Assembly: GCA_030834445.1 (NCBI GenBank)
Contig: JAURFC010000002.1
Location: 72,504-127,491 of the forward strand
Reading direction: 5' to 3'
DNA from: Bacillota bacterium
GTDB lineage: Bacteria; Bacillota_I; Bacilli_A; RFN20; CAG-826
Length of the DNA stretch: 54,988 bases
The notes below the pieces were generated by a model. It was not told where the DNA came from and ran no database searches. It saw nothing but the letters and a program-made list of their open reading frames with translations. The position numbers and the translations under genes are program-made. Positions 4,149 to 13,931 of the stretch are shown in pieces. How positions within the stretch are numbered: the first letter of the stretch is position 1; each line of letters starts with the position of its first letter.

Positions 4149-4577
4149 TTATTCTAAAGATAAATCGCCAAGGACAAAGAAACTCAATTGAGCCTTGACC
4201 AAACTTTGGTTATTTTGATTAAAAAACTCTACCGTCGTGCGCATGATTGAACGTCCTCGATGAAAGACAAAACCCTTTGCAGTAATAAGGGTATCCGCCG
4301 TCCCCATCTTCAGAAAAGAGATACTCATATCCGTGGTAACAACTCGTTTTCCTAAAGATAACGTTGCAATCGCTCCTACCACATCGACGAGGCCCGCTAA
4401 TGCACCCCCGTGAATTGCGCCATAACGATTCATGGAAACGTCATTGGGTTTCCAATTTATTTCTACCGAACCGGGTTCAAGATGAGTGATATGCGGTTGA
4501 ATCCAATGATCAAATGTTTGCGATTCACCTTTGATTGAGTAGTATTGTTTAATTTTTGTTAAGATTTCCTGGTTCAT
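4149..4577 (-). CDS. PaaI-type hotdog thioesterase
   Basis: A 142-residue acyl-CoA thioesterase of the PaaI/YdiI hotdog-fold family. The signature HGGALAGLVDVVGAIA (about residues 56-71) contains the conserved His-Gly-Gly and the acidic residue on the hotdog helix. TTDMSISFLKMG follows as the characteristic strand. Such enzymes hydrolyse aryl- or acyl-CoA thioesters in the cytoplasm. It is the first gene of the minus-strand run to 853, divergent from the lipoprotein gene at 4634 with only 56 bases between the starts. The substrate is unknown. Confidence 0.8.
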   Translation of the reverse strand: MNQEILTKIKQYYSIKGESQTFDHWIQPHITHLEPGSVEINWKPNDVSMNRYGAIHGGALAGLVDVVGAIATLSLGKRVVTTDMSISFLKMGTADTLITAKGFVFHRGRSIMRTTVEFFNQNNQSLVKAQLSFFVLGDLSLE

Positions 4578-4620
4578 GCCTTACTAAAAGCATATTGAAT
4601 GCATGCTTTCCTCTCATCAC

Positions 4621-4633
4621 TATAATAAACAAT
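4621..4633 (+). promoter_or_regulatory. -10 box of a probable leaderless transcript
   Basis: A perfect TATAAT at 4621-4626 lies 7 bases before the ATG at 4634. A transcript would therefore begin at or next to the start codon, and no Shine-Dalgarno sequence is present. No convincing -35 box is seen at 16-18 bases; TTGAAT at 4595 is 20 bases away. Confidence 0.55.
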
Positions 4634-5251
4634 ATGAAACAAATTGTATGGATTAAGACGCTACTACTTTTCACGCTTGTAAGTTGTGGAACTGCCGTTT
4701 CTTCAACGTCAATTCAATCTGAAAATCTATCCTCCCTCGACCCAACTTCACTGCCTTCGGAATTTTCTTCAGAGTTAATTAGTGTGAGTTCAGAAGAATT
4801 AATGCCTAGCCTAATGACAAAATGGGCAACTTTGTTAAGTATCCCCGAAGCGAATTATACCGAAACCAATTTAGAGTTAACGAATGAATTTACATCAGTA
4901 GATATCATTGAAGTTGCGGCTATCTATTCCCAAAATGATGCCACCTTTTATGGATTAGTGTATGAGGCAAATGTTTTAGGTAACGGGGGACGAATTCGTT
5001 TTCGTATCGGAATCGTTGATGAAACCTTTGCAGGTTTTAATGTTGTCACTCATAGCGAACATACAAGTTTTGGAATGAAAATCATTAACGCTTTAAATAC
5101 AGGACTTGTGGGTCAACCGGCCACGTACGAAGCAGCTGTCAATGTCTTAATTACCAAAAACGTTTCAGTCACTAACATTACAGAAACCTACAGTGCAATG
5201 TACCCCGCTATTGATGCAATGGTAAACCACGCCATGCAATTTCAGGCTTGA
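4634..5251 (+). CDS. lipoprotein with FMN_bind-like domain (first of tandem pair)
   Basis: A 205-residue lipoprotein. The signal peptide MKQIVWIKTLLLFTLVSCG has a lipobox ending at Cys. A Ser/Thr-rich linker follows, then a domain from about residue 75. The domain has the layout of FMN_bind proteins (RnfG, NqrC, PplA): GNGGRIRFRIGIV, then HSEHTSFG where the family has HxETPGxG, then TNITETYSAM where the family has the SGATxTS flavin-attachment motif. The threonine that would carry FMN is kept, while Gly-Ala of the motif is replaced. The downstream gene is a paralogue overlapping by 4 bases. The start at 4634 is chosen because it begins the signal peptide. Confidence 0.68.
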   Translation: MKQIVWIKTLLLFTLVSCGTAVSSTSIQSENLSSLDPTSLPSEFSSELISVSSEELMPSLMTKWATLLSIPEANYTETNLELTNEFTSVDIIEVAAIYSQNDATFYGLVYEANVLGNGGRIRFRIGIVDETFAGFNVVTHSEHTSFGMKIINALNTGLVGQPATYEAAVNVLITKNVSVTNITETYSAMYPAIDAMVNHAMQFQA

Positions 5252-5739
5252 AAAAACTTATTCCGTTTTTTGCTTTCATCTTATTACTAGGTTGTACACC
5301 AAGTACACCATCCGCATGGAATGATTTCCTTAATCTTCCTCAGCATGAAATCCTTCTTTTAGAAGTCCCTAAAAATTTAAATAATTTAGGAATTGAGGAA
5401 ATCATTTTTGCTGCCGAAGAAAATACGATTACCCATTATGGTTATGAAGCATCCGTTCATGGTAATCATGCCACGGTTAAAATTCGTTTTCGCCTTGTTG
5501 TAACGTCAAATGAAATTACCCATTTTTCCGTTCTCCAACATCAAGAACATGCCGGATTTGGTGTGATATTAATCGAGGCTCTCGAAGCTAATATTATTGG
5601 ATTAAGTCCACAGTTAAGTGCCATTGAAAACGTATTACAAACGACCGCTGTACCCAACACTGCATTGACCGAAACCTATGACGGTATGATGCCTGCGATC
5701 GATGCAATGCTACTTCACGCCGCTCAACTCTTCGCATAA
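5248..5739 (+). CDS. lipoprotein with FMN_bind-like domain (second of tandem pair)
   Basis: A 163-residue paralogue of the preceding protein. The start is a TTG whose last two bases begin the TGA stop of the upstream gene, so translation is probably coupled. The signal peptide MKKLIPFFAFILLLGC ends in the lipobox cysteine. The shared core includes KIRFRLVV, HQEHAGFG, and TALTETYDGMMPAIDAM. The C-terminal pattern TETYxxMxPAIDAM is common to both copies and is the strongest evidence for their relationship. The expected FMN-attachment threonine is retained in TALTET. If flavinylated, the pair could be extracytoplasmic electron carriers, but no ApbE or other redox gene is adjacent. Confidence 0.65.
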   Translation: MKKLIPFFAFILLLGCTPSTPSAWNDFLNLPQHEILLLEVPKNLNNLGIEEIIFAAEENTITHYGYEASVHGNHATVKIRFRLVVTSNEITHFSVLQHQEHAGFGVILIEALEANIIGLSPQLSAIENVLQTTAVPNTALTETYDGMMPAIDAMLLHAAQLFA

Positions 5740-7267: not shown

Positions 7268-7909
7268 TTAGCCTAAATCGATTTTTTTACCTTTAATTTT
7301 GAAGATGACTGCTTCACAAATGTTTTTCGTATGATCACCGGCACGTTCTAACGTTCGAATCATATTAAACGTATCTAGAACACTCATAATATTTTCTGTA
7401 TTGGCAATCTTTGGTATATCATTAAAAGCACGTTTTAATTTGGCATCAATGAGTTGATCTTGATTGGATATTTCAAACGTTTTTTCCAAGACAGGGGAAA
7501 AAAATAAATCTGTTGCCGCAATAAACATTTTTATAAAATTGGCATACATATCATCAATGTAATCTTTAAAGGGTACATACATGGGTTTGGCAAGGATGAT
7601 AAACTCAGAAATGGTCTTGGCGTAATCCCCAATTCGCTCGACATCATTGGCTACTCGAATCATCGCCATTGTGGAGCGTAAGTCTTTTGCAACCGGTGCT
7701 TGCGTAGCTAAAAATGTGAGAACCGATTCGTTAATAATTTCATCAAGGTTATTAACTTGCTCATCCCGTTTAATCACAGCGAGTGCTCGCTTTGTATCCA
7801 TGGATTTGAGCGCAACTTGGACATCTTGGTGCATACTAAGCACCAAGGAGATCATTTCTTGAAGATTTTTTTCAATTTCTTTAATTTGATTTTCAATTAG
7901 GGTTACCAT
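7268..7909 (-). CDS. phoU: phosphate-signalling protein PhoU
   Basis: A 213-residue cytoplasmic regulator made of two homologous three-helix bundles. Each carries the PhoU metal-binding pattern: RVANDVERIGDYAKTI in the first half and RTLERAGDHTKNI in the second. PhoU links the Pst transporter to the PhoR kinase and keeps the Pho response off when phosphate is plentiful. It is the last gene of the pst operon, 13 bases after pstB, with a GAGG ribosome binding site. Confidence 0.95.
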   Translation of the reverse strand: MVTLIENQIKEIEKNLQEMISLVLSMHQDVQVALKSMDTKRALAVIKRDEQVNNLDEIINESVLTFLATQAPVAKDLRSTMAMIRVANDVERIGDYAKTISEFIILAKPMYVPFKDYIDDMYANFIKMFIAATDLFFSPVLEKTFEISNQDQLIDAKLKRAFNDIPKIANTENIMSVLDTFNMIRTLERAGDHTKNICEAVIFKIKGKKIDLG

Positions 7910-7922
7910 AGTTGCCTCATTT

Positions 7923-8678
7923 CTAACCGAATCGACCGGTAATATAACTTTCTGAACGTGGATCTTTTGGCGTAGAGAAGAACGATTTTGTATCGCCCAC
8001 CTCGATTAAGTCACCAAGAAGGAAGAACGCTGTTTGATCCGAAATTCGTGCGGCTTGCTGCATGGAGTGGGTAACAATCACAATCGTATAATGTTGCTTT
8101 AATTGTACTATAAGTTCCTCAATTTTCGCGGTGGCAATCGGATCAAGCGCAGAGGTTGGTTCATCCATTAACAACACTTCAGGATTCATCGCGAGCGCAC
8201 GAGCGATGCAAAGCCGCTGTTGTTGCCCTCCGGAAAGTTCTAGGGCCGATTTGTTTAATCGATCTTTCACTTCTTCCCATAACGCCGCATCTTCTAATGC
8301 TTTTTTAACAAGGGCATCCATTTCTTTCTTTTCATAATGACGTTGGCAGCGAGGTCCATAGGCGATGTTGTCATAAATCGACATCGGGAAGGGATTGGGT
8401 TTTTGAAAAACCATACCGACGCGTTTACGAACGTCAATGACATCGGTTTTTTTATCATAAACATCTAACGATCCAAATAGGACTTGTCCGCGAATTGTCA
8501 CATCGGGAATTAAATCATTCATCCGGTTCAACGTTCGTAAAAACGTGGATTTCCCACAGCCAGAAGGACCAATTAAAGCCGTCACACTATGGGAATCAAT
8601 GGATAAATCAATGTTCTTTAGTGCATGATTTTTCCCGTAATAGAGGTTGAGGCCTTTTACCACAAATGTTTTTTCCAT
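7923..8678 (-). CDS. pstB: phosphate ABC transporter ATP-binding protein
   Basis: A 251-residue ATPase of the PstSCAB phosphate importer. Walker A is GPSGCGKST (about 36-44), the signature is LSGGQQQR, Walker B is [12 protein letters not shown], and the switch His is in [11 protein letters not shown]. The NRMNDLIPD region and [21 protein letters not shown] are diagnostic of PstB. It lies one base after pstA on the same strand, between the permeases and phoU. Confidence 0.97.
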
Positions 8679-8679
8679 A

Positions 8680-9918
8680 TTAAACCTGGGCTCCTAACCG
8701 ACCCTTTAAAAAGCGATAACTAATAAATTTGATAAGGAGGTTAAGAATTAACACAATCCCTAAAATAATGATGGCAATGGTTGAAGATAGGGCAATATTG
8801 GCAGGTTCATCCGTCATCATTGAATAAATATGAACTGCAAGAGATGTCGATTTATCCGTTAAAGTGACCTCATCTCGAATAATCGATCCCACGGCAAAAA
8901 TAAGCGCTGCCGACTCACCTACGATGCGACCAATGGCTAATAAGGTGGATGCTAAGATTCCCGGTAAGGCATTAGGAACCACGACTTTAAACGTGGTTTG
9001 GGTTTGACTAGCACCTAATGCGAGGGAGGCATAACGATAATCATTCGGTACGACACGTAAACTTTCTTCGGTGGTACGAATAATCACAGGGAGTAAAATA
9101 ACCGCCAACGTCATGGCACCAGAAATAAGATTACCTCCTGTTGCCGGTGAATTCGTATTCGCGGTGAGCGAAACAACAAGGGGAACAAATACGGCTAAAC
9201 CGAGGAGTCCAAAAATTATGGACGGCACGCCGGTAAGAATTTCGATAAAGGAACGGATAATCCGTGTTGCCTGATTCTTTTTTGCGTATTCATTGAGGTA
9301 AAGGGCCGCGCCGATTCCAATCGGTAGGGCAAACAAAAGCGTTAATCCGATGAGCCATAATGTCGTAATCAATGACCCACGAATGCCACCTCCTTTGGTT
9401 GTCACTTCGAGTTCAAAAATCGAATTAGAGCTGTCGAGTTCTTGAATCATGCGTTCCGCACCTCGACGCGCTAATGAAGTTGCCCGATCATTATAAGATA
9501 TTTTTGAAATGAGATATTCTTTCAGCAAAGGAAATTGCTCCGGTCCCACCGCTGATTTATTCACAAGCGTTTCAAACGGAGAATCAGGATGAATATAAGC
9601 GATGATAATGGAAGGTTGGCCTAAGAGATCAACCCCTTCTTCAATTCCCAAACCCCACTTCTGTGAATAATAAACATTGTCTTCAAGCGATTGCATCGCG
9701 GGAAAATTGCCAGGTTCTTCATAACGTTCGATGGTCGCTAAATACACATTGGATTCATAATCATACGTTAATAAATCCACATTCATTAAACTCCAACCTT
9801 GATTAAATAAAAACACTAAAATCGCGCCAAGGGTAAGAAAAGAAACGGAGGAAAAAAGATACGTCAGTGACTGTAATAAGCCATCAATCCACAAACGAAG
9901 TGAAAAAGGCTTACGCAT
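8680..9918 (-). CDS. pstA: phosphate permease PstA with large extracytoplasmic insertion
   Basis: A 412-residue inner-membrane permease. The usual PstA is near 290 residues, so about 120 extra residues are present. TM1 lies at residues about 19-38. An insertion follows at about 50-175, then [16 protein letters not shown] begins the normal permease core with [17 protein letters not shown] as the EAA loop that docks on PstB. Within the insertion, WGLGIEEG (88-95), [12 protein letters not shown] (104-115) and the later [11 protein letters not shown] and FELEVTT are arranged like a PDZ domain. It overlaps pstC by 8 bases. The permease call is firm; the PDZ assignment is inference. Confidence 0.93.
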
Positions 9919-10843
9919 ACATACGACCCACTTTGCGTTTGATAAAGTTTAAGGTTAAATTGGTTAATAAAATGATAACCATCAAGACAAGTCCAATGGA
10001 GAAACGTATCGTGTAATCCAAACCCACCGTTTCTTTCATCCCTAATAACATCGTGGATGTTAACGTCGCAGTGGTGTCAAATAAGTTAAAGGTAATTCCA
10101 GAACGGCGTGATCCCGCGACTAACGCAACCGCGGTAGCTTCACCAAGCGCACGACCTACGCCAAGAATGGCAGCTGTGAAAATCCCAGATTTAGCCGCAG
10201 CAAGAACAACTTTAAATTGCGTTTGGGTTTGCGTAGCACCTAAAGCGAGCGATCCTTGAATTAGACTTTTATCGACCGATCGAATCGCCACTTCCGCGAT
10301 GACGGTCATTGTAGGAATAATCATGATTGCTAAGACAATCACGGTCGATAAAACCGAAAAACCTGCCGCTGATTGCACCCCAAATGAAACCGATAGATTA
10401 TAAACCACATTTAAAATAAAACCCGCACCAAATAATCCATAAACTATCGAAGGAATTGCTGCGAGAATTTCAATGATCGTTCGTAACAAATTTCCAAGCC
10501 ATCTCGGGGCGATTTTGGCAATAAAAAGTGCGGTTAAAGTTGCGATCGGTGCCGCAATCAATAATGCTAAAAAGGCATTGTATAATGTGCTGATAATTAA
10601 GTAGCCGATGCCGTAAGCATTTGATAAAAAGGTGGGACCATCTAAATAGACAATACCTGTCAGAAATCGTAATAAATTGACTTGTCCTAAGCCATCGTTA
10701 TCCGAGATAAAGGGAGTAATGCCCCGCTCAAAGATGACAATGACAATCAGTACGATAAAAGATGCAGATAAAATCGCTGTTCCAAACAAGATATTTTCAA
10801 CAATTTTATCAACCACTTTTTTTAAAGTATTTTTTGATTTCAT
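9911..10843 (-). CDS. pstC: phosphate permease PstC
   Basis: A 310-residue permease subunit of PstSCAB with about six membrane helices. The EAA loop is GSLALGATQTQTQFKVVL, followed by GRALGEATAVALVAG, a PstC hallmark. I start it at the ATG at 10843 (MKSKNTLKK). An in-frame TTG at 10861 would add six residues, but neither has a good ribosome binding site. A terminator-like hairpin separates it from pstS, which suggests lower expression than the binding protein. Confidence 0.94.
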   Translation of the reverse strand: MKSKNTLKKVVDKIVENILFGTAILSASFIVLIVIVIFERGITPFISDNDGLGQVNLLRFLTGIVYLDGPTFLSNAYGIGYLIISTLYNAFLALLIAAPIATLTALFIAKIAPRWLGNLLRTIIEILAAIPSIVYGLFGAGFILNVVYNLSVSFGVQSAAGFSVLSTVIVLAIMIIPTMTVIAEVAIRSVDKSLIQGSLALGATQTQTQFKVVLAAAKSGIFTAAILGVGRALGEATAVALVAGSRRSGITFNLFDTTATLTSTMLLGMKETVGLDYTIRFSIGLVLMVIILLTNLTLNFIKRKVGRMYA

Positions 10844-10864
10844 AAGTTTTTTTAACAACAAAAA

Positions 10865-10913: not shown

Positions 10914-11930
10914 TTAAAGCGCGGCTTCTGCATCCAAAGCATCTTGCCATGTCCGAATCGGATTGGCCGCTGCTTTTTCATACATACGTTTTAATAGATC
11001 AGCATCGACATTGCTTAAGGGATTGTCATTGTGAACAATCGCCACAATGGCATCCCAGGCTAATTGTCCAAGTTGTTCAGAGGGAAGTGCGGTTCCATTA
11101 AGATCGACTTGTTCGGCAGCGGTAAAGTTACGTGAGGCAAATCCAACGTCCTTACCTACTGCTTCGTCTTTCTGAGCACCATTAGTACGTTTCCAAGCAT
11201 CCCCCGAACCAGTGTGTTCGTGTTCAGCTACAAAATTTCCGCATCGTGGACGGAAGGAAGCAGTCACAGCTTTTGCGACTTTTTCAATGGAATCCGATCC
11301 ACCGAAACGAACCGTGATCGCAGAGTTATCTTGATCACAGACGGGATATTGGGATTTAATATCATCCCAACGGGTATTGGTTGCTAAGGCTACAGCTCCG
11401 GCACCCGCAATCGTATCTTCACCTTCAATGGTGGTCATAAACGCGACAAATGCTTTGGCAATATTTTCAACCGTGTCTGATGGGAAATCACCATCGGCAC
11501 GTAACATCCAATTAAACGGACGTTTTAACCCATAAGAATTATCTAAAACAGTATCTTCACTCGCTTCGATTCCATTAAAGGTTAAGCCTTTCACATTGGC
11601 ATTAAGCGAAGATAATGACACGTAACCGATACCATATTTGTCCGATCCACTCATGGCGGTTAAAATCGCGGTGTTATCAGCGATAATAAAACCTTCTGTT
11701 AATAAATTGTCATCTTTCGCCGCCGCAGAAAAACCTATGCCACCCATAAATCCATCGCGTGTTCCAGATGTCGTGTCGCGAGTGTAGAGAACAATATTGT
11801 TTTCTGCATTGAAGCTCGGAACTTGAGAACTGGCAGTGGATGAGGCAACGCTACTTGAGGTTCCTCCACAGGCGGCAAGTAAGGTGGCAAACCCTGTAAG
11901 CCAAATTCCTTTTTTAAAGTGCATGTTCAT
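10914..11930 (-). CDS. pstS: phosphate-binding lipoprotein PstS, circularly permuted
   Basis: The phosphate-binding subunit of the Pst importer, 338 residues. Signal peptide and lipobox LLAAC place the lipid cysteine at 21, then a Ser/Ala-rich linker. Residues 46-182 match the canonical C-terminal half: TRDTTSGTRDGF (50-61), YGIGYVSLSSLN (99-110), then FVAFMTTIEGEDTI. Residues 205-330 match the canonical N-terminal half: ITVRFGGSDSIEKV, HTGSGDAW (239-246), DVGFASRNF (261-269), AIVHNDNPLSNV and the Trp-containing RTWQDA. The phosphate loops are all present but in order 4-1-2-3. The start at 11930 follows GAGGAGGAAAG; an upstream ATG at 11957 lies before that ribosome site and is rejected. Confidence 0.9.
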   Translation of the reverse strand: MNMHFKKGIWLTGFATLLAACGGTSSSVASSTASSQVPSFNAENNIVLYTRDTTSGTRDGFMGGIGFSAAAKDDNLLTEGFIIADNTAILTAMSGSDKYGIGYVSLSSLNANVKGLTFNGIEASEDTVLDNSYGLKRPFNWMLRADGDFPSDTVENIAKAFVAFMTTIEGEDTIAGAGAVALATNTRWDDIKSQYPVCDQDNSAITVRFGGSDSIEKVAKAVTASFRPRCGNFVAEHEHTGSGDAWKRTNGAQKDEAVGKDVGFASRNFTAAEQVDLNGTALPSEQLGQLAWDAIVAIVHNDNPLSNVDADLLKRMYEKAAANPIRTWQDALDAEAAL

Positions 11931-11982
11931 TCGTTTTCTTTCCTCCTCATGATTCATACAACATTACCATAGAGGATGAAAT

Positions 11983-12018
11983 CGTTAAGATGATGAACTT
12001 TAGGTTAAGTTTTGTTAA
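11983..12018 (-). promoter_or_regulatory. putative Pho box upstream of pstS
   Basis: On the minus strand TTAACA (12018-12013), TTAACC (12008-12003) and TTAACG (11988-11983) are spaced by 10 and 20 bases, on one face of the helix. This resembles the TTAACA direct repeats bound by PhoP/PhoB-type regulators. The first repeat overlaps the phoR stop codon. They lie 53-88 bases upstream of the pstS start. Confidence 0.6.
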
Positions 12019-13232
12019 CGCAGGTTGGGAAGACTTAAAATAAAGGTCGTTCCCCGACCTAATTCACTTTTCACTTCGATGGTCCCTTTATGTGCTTCAA
12101 TGATGGCGCGCGTAATAGCCAATCCCAAGCCACTGCCACCTTCAACGCGATTACGAGCGAAGTCCGTCCGATAAAATCGATCAAAAATGCGTGGAAGGTT
12201 TTGAGGTTCAATACCTGCACCAGAATCGGAAAAGATGATAATCGTATATTTATCAGCTATCTCACAATGGATCTTCACGCCGCCTTTTGTGGTATATCGT
12301 ATCGCATTGGATAGAAGATTAGAAAAAATTTGAAATGTCTTATCACGATCAAGAAAAACAACGGTATGACAGGAGGGGTGAACATCAACCGACAAACCTT
12401 TCTCTCGTAGAGAGGTTTGATGGACTTGAAGTACATCTCCAAGTAATTCATCAAAATAAAATTCTGATTTGATTAAGGTAGAAAATAGTTGATTATCGAG
12501 TTTAGATAAATTGGTAAGTTCATCCATTAATCGTTGCATTCGTGCAGATTCTTTATCGATAATTTCTAGAAAACTTTGTCGTTCGCGAGGAGATAATTTT
12601 GCCCCAGGTCGATTGAGGATATCCGAAGCCCCCATAATCGCCGCCAAAGGTGTTTTTAATTCGTGCGATATGTCGGCCAAAAATTCCGTTTGAACTTGGT
12701 CTAAGTTATGTTGATGCGAAATATCCACGGAAAGCACTAACACCCCGAAGAAAGTTGATTCAAATTCTAACCGTATGATGCGTGTTTGGATCCTTTTTTT
12801 ATCCAAATCCCATTCAAAGGTAGCTCCCGTTTCGATCGCTAAGGATTGTTGCAAACTTCCCCATAATGTCGGATATGGTTTTAGTGCATCAATTGTTGTC
12901 CATGTGTCACCGATTAAGGCTTTTTGCCGGGACGACGATAAAAAGATTTGACCCGAAGGCAGTACAAGAAAAAATGCTTGATCAAGATGTTTTGTCAGTT
13001 GATCCAAGAGAAACTCGTCTTGTAACGATTGACTCGACACAATGGGGATCTTGGGTGGTCCTTCTATCGAGCCAGGCATCCATAAAAATATAATAAAAAT
13101 AAATGCGGTTAAAAAAAAGATAAATATACTTAAAAAAGTCCCATTATTACGAAAGAAAAAGGTTACTAACAAGGAAATTAAAAGAAAAAATAGTCCGAGC
13201 ATCACGCGTCCGAGAAGTGTTTTCTTTTCCAT
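12015..13232 (-). CDS. phoR: PhoR-type sensor histidine kinase
   Basis: A 405-residue membrane sensor kinase. Two N-terminal hydrophobic helices (about 9-27 and 33-51) are followed by a PAS-like segment at about 70-175. The dimerisation/phosphoacceptor box is ADISHELKTPLAAIMGAS. The N box is SNLLSNAIRYT, G1 is DSGAGI, F is IFDRFYRTD, and G2 is GGSGLGLAI. It should phosphorylate the PhoB-like regulator encoded 18 bases upstream and read Pst/PhoU status. Compared with B. subtilis PhoR it lacks a large extracellular domain, in line with sensing through PstSCAB-PhoU. Confidence 0.92.
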   Translation of the reverse strand: MEKKTLLGRVMLGLFFLLISLLVTFFFRNNGTFLSIFIFFLTAFIFIIFLWMPGSIEGPPKIPIVSSQSLQDEFLLDQLTKHLDQAFFLVLPSGQIFLSSSRQKALIGDTWTTIDALKPYPTLWGSLQQSLAIETGATFEWDLDKKRIQTRIIRLEFESTFFGVLVLSVDISHQHNLDQVQTEFLADISHELKTPLAAIMGASDILNRPGAKLSPRERQSFLEIIDKESARMQRLMDELTNLSKLDNQLFSTLIKSEFYFDELLGDVLQVHQTSLREKGLSVDVHPSCHTVVFLDRDKTFQIFSNLLSNAIRYTTKGGVKIHCEIADKYTIIIFSDSGAGIEPQNLPRIFDRFYRTDFARNRVEGGSGLGLAITRAIIEAHKGTIEVKSELGRGTTFILSLPNLR

Positions 13233-13250
13233 GCCTTACATTATATAAGG

Positions 13251-13931
13251 TTACTTAAGTAATAAGGAATAACCCACACCACGAACCGGTTTAAAGAAAC
13301 ATTCTGCATCAATAAGTTTTCGTTTTAGATTGTAAACATGGACATCAACAATCCGTGTTGTTCCATCATATTCAAAACCCCAAATCGCATTAAGTATGGT
13401 ATCGCGAGATAAGGCTTGTTCTTTGTTAACGATGAAAAATTTTAGTAAATCAAATTCCATCTTCGTGAGTTCGATGGGTTTTTGATTCACAAACACTTTA
13501 AATTGCTTTAAATCTAAAAGAATATTTGAAAAATCGAGGGTATCTTCTTCGTGATTTTTGTCGGGTTGGAAGTGACCGAGTAATGCTTTTACTTGAGCAA
13601 TGAGTTCACGATTTGAGATGGGTTTTTTTAAATAAAGATCAGCCCCAGAACTTAATCCTTCAATCGCATCAAATTCAGACGTTTTTGCGGTGAGCATGAC
13701 AAACAAACCTTTATTTTTTTCCGCCCTTAACTTTTTCACTAATTCTAAGCCTGACATGTTTGGAATCATCCAATCAATAATAAAACAATCAAATTTTTCC
13801 TTTTGTACCATCCGGTATGCTTCCGTTCCGTTATTCGCGTTTTTAACAACAAATCCGGCGGTTTCAAGGTCAAATTTTAATATTTTAGCTAAAGATGGTT
13901 CATCTTCGACGACTAAAATCTTCTTTGCCAT
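13251..13931 (-). CDS. phoB: PhoB/PhoP-type response regulator
   Basis: A 226-residue OmpR/PhoB-family regulator. The receiver domain (1-120) has the acidic pair in VVEDEPS, the phosphoacceptor Asp in IIDWMIPNMSG, Thr in MLTAKTS and Lys in YLKKPIS. The C-terminal winged helix contains LTKMEFDLLKFF and the recognition/wing part RIVDVHVYNLKRKL ending in RGVGYSL. AAAGGAGAT precedes the start. It begins the minus-strand run phoB-phoR-pstS-pstC-pstA-pstB-phoU and is the likely activator of pstS and phnD. Confidence 0.93.
   Translation of the reverse strand: MAKKILVVEDEPSLAKILKFDLETAGFVVKNANNGTEAYRMVQKEKFDCFIIDWMIPNMSGLELVKKLRAEKNKGLFVMLTAKTSEFDAIEGLSSGADLYLKKPISNRELIAQVKALLGHFQPDKNHEEDTLDFSNILLDLKQFKVFVNQKPIELTKMEFDLLKFFIVNKEQALSRDTILNAIWGFEYDGTTRIVDVHVYNLKRKLIDAECFFKPVRGVGYSLLLK

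Follow-up and report, generated by a model that had tools for sequence, protein, structure and literature searches.

A circularly permuted phosphate-binding protein in the pst operon of a Bacillota bacterium, and its tandem, re-cut and apparently reverted relatives

Results

The pst locus and the pstS reading frame

The window, i.e., the whole stretch of 54,988 nucleotides that was analysed, contains an intact pnpRS-pstSCAB-phoU locus, with all the genes around pstS on one strand. The genes and the parts of pstS are as follows, with the evidence for each in brackets.

7268..7909, minus strand: phoU (TIGR02135, 147 bits, above cut-off)
7923..8678, minus strand: pstB ATPase (TIGR00972, 404 bits, above cut-off)
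8680..9918, minus strand: pstA permease, its core preceded by a long extra segment (TIGR00974, 219.5 bits, above cut-off, match at residues 172-403)
9911..10861, minus strand: pstC permease (TIGR02138, 221 bits, above cut-off)
10914..11930, minus strand: pstS, circularly permuted phosphate-binding lipoprotein, 338 aa from the preferred start (open reading frame, family matches, doubled-profile match, AlphaFold2 model)
10938..11315, minus strand: canonical N-terminal half of PstS, placed second, with the GGSDS, TGSGDA and ASR loops (canonical profile 4-105; PF12849 11-126)
11316..11375, minus strand: linker from the canonical C-terminus to the canonical N-terminus, W..IK..YP...DNS (between the profile matches)
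11376..11798, minus strand: canonical C-terminal half, placed first, about residues 54-194, with the R60-x3-S64-G65-T66 loop (canonical profile 115-242; TIGR02136 154-291)
11799..11867, minus strand: Ser-rich tether from the lipid anchor to the folded domain (sequence; low pLDDT in the model)
11868..11930, minus strand: signal peptide ending in the lipobox LAAC, Cys30 in the 347-aa numbering (sequence)
11942..11947, minus strand: AGGAGG, ribosome-binding-like, 5' of the ATG at 11930 (read off the sequence)
12015..13232, minus strand: PnpS/PhoR-like histidine kinase (NF046044, 251 bits, best match, below its cut-off)
13251..13931, minus strand: PnpR/PhoB-like response regulator (TIGR02154, 191 bits, best match, below its cut-off)

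The pstS frame is open and continuous over 10914-11957, and an upstream ATG at 11957 would give a product of 347 aa. We preferred the ATG at 11930 as the start because the AGGAGG motif lies between the two. This start also reproduces the residue numbers of a preliminary description of the locus; those used here are counted from the ATG at 11957 and are 9 higher. Inspection of the sequence agreed with the open reading frame and the motifs that had been reported there. Within an alignment of 95 homologues, Cys30 of the lipobox was nearly invariant, and the linker motif W..IK..YP...DNS was conserved in the consensus of the A2 group.

Order of the two halves

The preliminary description had also claimed that the half of PstS that is normally C-terminal stands first in this protein, and had asked for the halves to be searched separately. 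Three profiles agreed on the swap. TIGR02136 matched residues 45-187 at model positions 154-291, and Pfam PBP_like_2 (PF12849) matched residues 215-340 at model positions 11-126. Our own profile, built from 15 canonical PstS and 244 positions long, placed residues 51-190 at 115-242 and residues 215-329 at 4-105 (the query frame starts two residues earlier here). When this profile was doubled end to end, it was covered over about positions 116-349 of 488, with each half found once. The match of the whole protein had an E-value of 3e-24, far from chance. Both halves are, then, homologous to PstS, their order is not the canonical one, and the chain is cut just before the R-x3-SGT loop.

The protein scored 42.2 bits against PF12849, above the cut-off of 27, and 85.6 bits against TIGR02136, far below the cut-off of 206.6; a permuted chain is expected to lose score against a linear model. 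Since the C-half comes first, we classed it as a permuted variant and not as a canonical PstS.

Structure prediction and comparison with solved structures

AlphaFold2, with the 95-sequence alignment as input, gave a confident two-lobed model (pLDDT 91.7, near 97 in the folded part; pTM 0.82). Only 4H1X came close to this model in a Foldseek search of the PDB (TM 0.85 by target length, E 1.1e-20); the runner-up had an E-value of 3.8e-05 and a TM of 0.34. 4H1X is the S. pneumoniae protein SP_2084, released in 2012 as 'Phosphate-binding protein pstS 2', and its halves stand in the same order as those of the window PstS. The two proteins differ in that the identity in the structural alignment is about 24%, the linker of 4H1X is shorter, and 4H1X belongs to a different region of the PstS tree.

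In agreement, phmmer aligned residues 51-321 of the window protein to 7-249 of 4H1X in one stretch, and a profile of the permuted family searched against PDB sequences also matched 4H1X in one stretch, whereas the other listed PstS chains were matched in pieces or by one half. Canonical PstS (TIGR02136/PF12849; 4GD5, 4Q8R, 1TWY) share with the window protein two homologous halves, the phosphate loops and the operon partners, but they have the halves in the opposite order, and Foldseek found no high-TM sequential match to them. In a control search of the same library, the model of L087, a relative whose order is mostly canonical (the second-cut form described below; pLDDT 89.2), had canonical PstS as its top matches.

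The model is one bilobed protein, collinear with the permuted 4H1X, and neither two complete PBP domains nor an unrelated fold; these, and profile matches in canonical order, were the findings that had been named as refuting the swap, and none of them was obtained. The doubled profile, the AlphaFold2 model and 4H1X show the hallmarks of a circular permutant: the parent fold, a shifted start, and every element once. Collectively, the order of the halves, the structure prediction with Foldseek, and the collinearity with a solved permuted homologue support that the window pstS product is a circularly permuted PstS, and that the permutation is real.

Phosphate loops and function

The residues expected to hold phosphate are kept. 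R60, S64, S221 and S223 were invariant in the alignment of 95 permuted homologues, and G65, T66, G250, S251, S275 and R276 were present in at least 90% of them. The contact-loop motifs R-x3-SGT, GSxS, GSG and SR are all found in the window protein, as the preliminary description had it, and we take the conserved residues to correspond to the phosphate-holding loops of E. coli PstS.

Along the chain, the lipid anchor is followed by the canonical C-half, a linker of about 20-30 residues replaces the old termini, and the canonical N-half comes last. From these two halves the usual bilobed phosphate trap is predicted to form, with the loops of one half meeting those of the other at the cleft. The anchored PstS would bind phosphate between these loops, dock on PstCA and pass the phosphate on.

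The low TIGR02136 score (85.6 vs. 206.6 bits) could also be read as that of a permuted substrate-binding protein that has lost phosphate binding or has another oxyanion as its ligand. However, this loss of score is expected from the swapped order, the phosphate-loop residues are conserved, and the gene is the only PstS match in the genome and lies within pnpRS-pstSCAB-phoU, so that we regard a change of ligand as quite improbable. The permuted protein is very probably functional, a view that draws on the family, the operon and the conserved residues for phosphate binding and transport. We give a probability of roughly 0.85 to the reading that it is the working PstS of the phosphate ABC importer of this genome, with a permuted chain, taken jointly with the evolutionary account given below.

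The lipid anchor is shifted to another point of the bilobed PstS, a natural experiment on how tethering geometry bears on delivery to the permease.

Distribution of the permuted form

About 790 genomes were searched in all; many were MAGs, and Clostridia were sampled thinly, only through plasmid records. In the order of the window genome, TIGR02136 matched in 80 of 279 genomes. According to our reading of the match order in the TIGR02136 table, these comprised 53 permuted, five N-C with a tail, one with a second cut, two canonical, 16 with other PBP proteins and three unclear. Large PBP-domain proteins of 318-475 aa matched by the same model in this order (e.g., L041-L049 and L054-L062) were set aside as not PstS. 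The permuted form is the usual one in the order, found in 53 of the 61 genomes with a recognisable PstS; the rearrangement given in the preliminary description is real, but common in this lineage and not unusual.

Over all loci, the C-N order was found in 144 distinct open frames. Named carriers include Acholeplasma laidlawii, A. oculi, Peloplasma aerotolerans and Paracholeplasma vituli, with collinear matches and the pst gene order. Plasmid records of Monoglobus pectinilyticus (Clostridia) and Treponema saccharophilum contain collinear permuted genes directly before pstC, annotated just as 'substrate-binding domain-containing protein'. Because linear profiles break on permuted chains, and the PstS name was lost in the reference annotation of these two homologues, too few phosphate-uptake genes are probably being called in Mollicute-like Bacilli, in Clostridia and in some spirochaetes. 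Among viral contigs, no close relative of the permuted PstS was found with the patterns tried.

Many of the surveyed genomes being MAGs, and one relative (L256) having a probable single frameshift, we considered whether the swapped order stems from faulty gene prediction, a frameshift or a wrong assembly. The window frame is open, however, and the same order recurs in the 144 distinct frames, in named isolates (A. laidlawii, A. oculi), in complete plasmid records and in the 4H1X crystal structure. The isolates and 4H1X refute this explanation, whose chance we regard as negligible.

Tandem, re-cut and apparently reverted relatives

Several other forms of PstS were found among the relatives, and wherever the gene neighbourhood of a form was examined, pstC followed immediately downstream within a pst operon. 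In-frame C-N-C-N tandems are encoded by four genes, of 593-678 aa (L085, L088, L090, L091), and a C-N-C-N-C-N tandem by one of 910 aa (L224). Their repeats are 65-97% identical to each other, and the N-halves are too diverged for assembly duplicates. The tandems found are copies of the already permuted unit, on about four branches. In L087 and L019, the canonical C-terminal helix comes first, followed by the linker, the N-half and then what remains of the C-half; this is a second permutation, cut near canonical position 213.

Five proteins have the halves in N-C order with a C-terminal tail absent from canonical PstS. When the tail of L017 was aligned to the linker between the halves of L088, a tandem relative, the score was 93, against a maximum of 49 in 200 shuffles, and this tail is clearly a scar of the former C-to-N linker. 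The tails of L018, L036, L037 and L038 had their best match mostly in the permuted sister L114, with scores near the shuffled maximum.

Two further loci were noted. In L256 (G609), a tandem pstS lies directly before pstC on a long contig of a MAG; it was rejected as an N-C-N intermediate, the first C-half running on in another frame after one apparent frameshift, which sequencing error or decay would both fit. In L129 (G325), two separate permuted pstS genes with frames of 302 and 335 aa are adjacent, tandem but not fused.

Tree and route of the permutation

For the tree, each chain was put back into canonical columns. The window PstS shared a clade (support 100/99) with the tandems, the tailed N-C forms and the second-cut forms, and canonical PstS lay outside it. 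A constraint that united every N-C protein, tailed or canonical, was rejected (p 7e-6; 4e-82 with only the N-half and 2e-4 with only the C-half), and so was a single clade of the tailed N-C proteins (p 4e-4). As the N-C proteins are nested within the permuted clade and do not form one tailed clade, the N-C order was regained at least twice from permuted ancestors. If the tailed N-C form were ancestral in the clade instead, the permuted order would need to have arisen many times on the tree.

A single origin was not rejected for the permuted order (AU p 0.35), the second-cut forms (p 0.095) or the tandems (p 0.106). The free tree scatters the permuted proteins over several clades, and several independent origins were considered; this was dropped, since the AU test allows one origin, though without requiring it.

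The most likely route is an in-frame tandem duplication of pstS, after which loss of the first N-half and the last C-half would have left the permuted chain. The same process would have continued in the lineage, giving the C-N-C-N and C-N-C-N-C-N tandems as well as the second cut of L087 and L019. A return to N-C order would have taken place in at least two lineages, one of them clearly with the former linker as a tail. Fission and fusion, in which pstS would have split into two genes that later joined the other way round, is an accepted route to permutation (PMC3320104), and none of the roughly 790 genomes searched showed an N-C-N-C tandem of the kind that duplication would place at the root of the permuted clade. 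On the other side, no split pstS was recognised in the survey, which was not aimed at split genes, in-frame tandems occur on about four branches, and end-trimming of tandems is all that the second cut and the N-C returns require. We therefore consider fission and fusion unlikely, and favour duplication and trimming.

The preliminary description had asked where in related genomes the permutation arose; the survey places it as the usual form of the order, and not as one frozen event. It is probable that permutation of PstS is both reversible and recurrent, duplication and trimming in one orthologous operon slot having given permuted, re-cut and at least two reverted forms, with the reverted told from the ancestral by tree position and once clearly by the linker scar.

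Discussion

Permuted substrate-binding proteins, and permutation by duplication with intermediates, are already known. TpMglB-2 (Tp0684) of Treponema pallidum is a natural circularly permuted substrate-binding protein, proposed as 'Type Ic / Cluster Bc'; like the permuted PstS it has a rearranged chain, with both termini in one lobe, and it still binds its ligand, but it has a glucose-binding Type I fold, belongs to another family and is cut at another point (PMC4990184). CPSARST found a glycine-betaine/molybdate-binding family related by circular permutation, again among bacterial substrate-binding proteins, though between distant families of <24% identity and not within one orthologous operon position as for PstS (PMC2395249). 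Tandem duplication with end-trimming is the explanation given for the permutations of DNA methyltransferases and saposin/swaposin, with intermediates reported for the methyltransferases (PMC3320104); in PstS, by comparison, tandem, permuted, re-cut and reverted forms share one operon slot in related genomes.

What appears to be new is this within-operon series of PstS forms, together with the returns to the original order. Circular permutants are mostly known as isolated pairs whose route is inferred, while a series in one operon slot allows direct tests of the duplication model, of its intermediates and of whether it can run in reverse. The preliminary description knew of no published account; we found no paper on a permuted PstS or on 4H1X in the searchable literature (most subscription journals lie outside it), but the topology itself has been public since 2012 as 4H1X. 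SP_2084 is presumably the PstS of the S. pneumoniae pst1 operon, in which case there is already one permuted PstS with a known function in vivo. The pst1 operon, beside pnpRS, is induced >100-fold at low phosphate and is needed for full uptake under this condition (PMC4913102).

Three further observations were made around the locus. The closest PstS outside the genus are in MAGs of Acholeplasmataceae/Tenericutes, with 57-62% identity, and the best from a genome of the same family has 48%; this pattern suggests that the pst locus may have been horizontally transferred. The window PstA (8680-9918, minus strand) has about 120 extra residues ahead of its permease core (172-403 of 412). This segment is common to the pst operons of most of the permuted clade and apparently absent from canonical (L286) and Clostridia/Treponema (L254, L255) operons, and it may be an extracytoplasmic domain meeting PstS. 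Finally, two adjacent, similar small lipoproteins of 231 and 163 aa, with a 4-base overlap, are encoded at 4556-5739 on the plus strand, an apparent tandem duplication.
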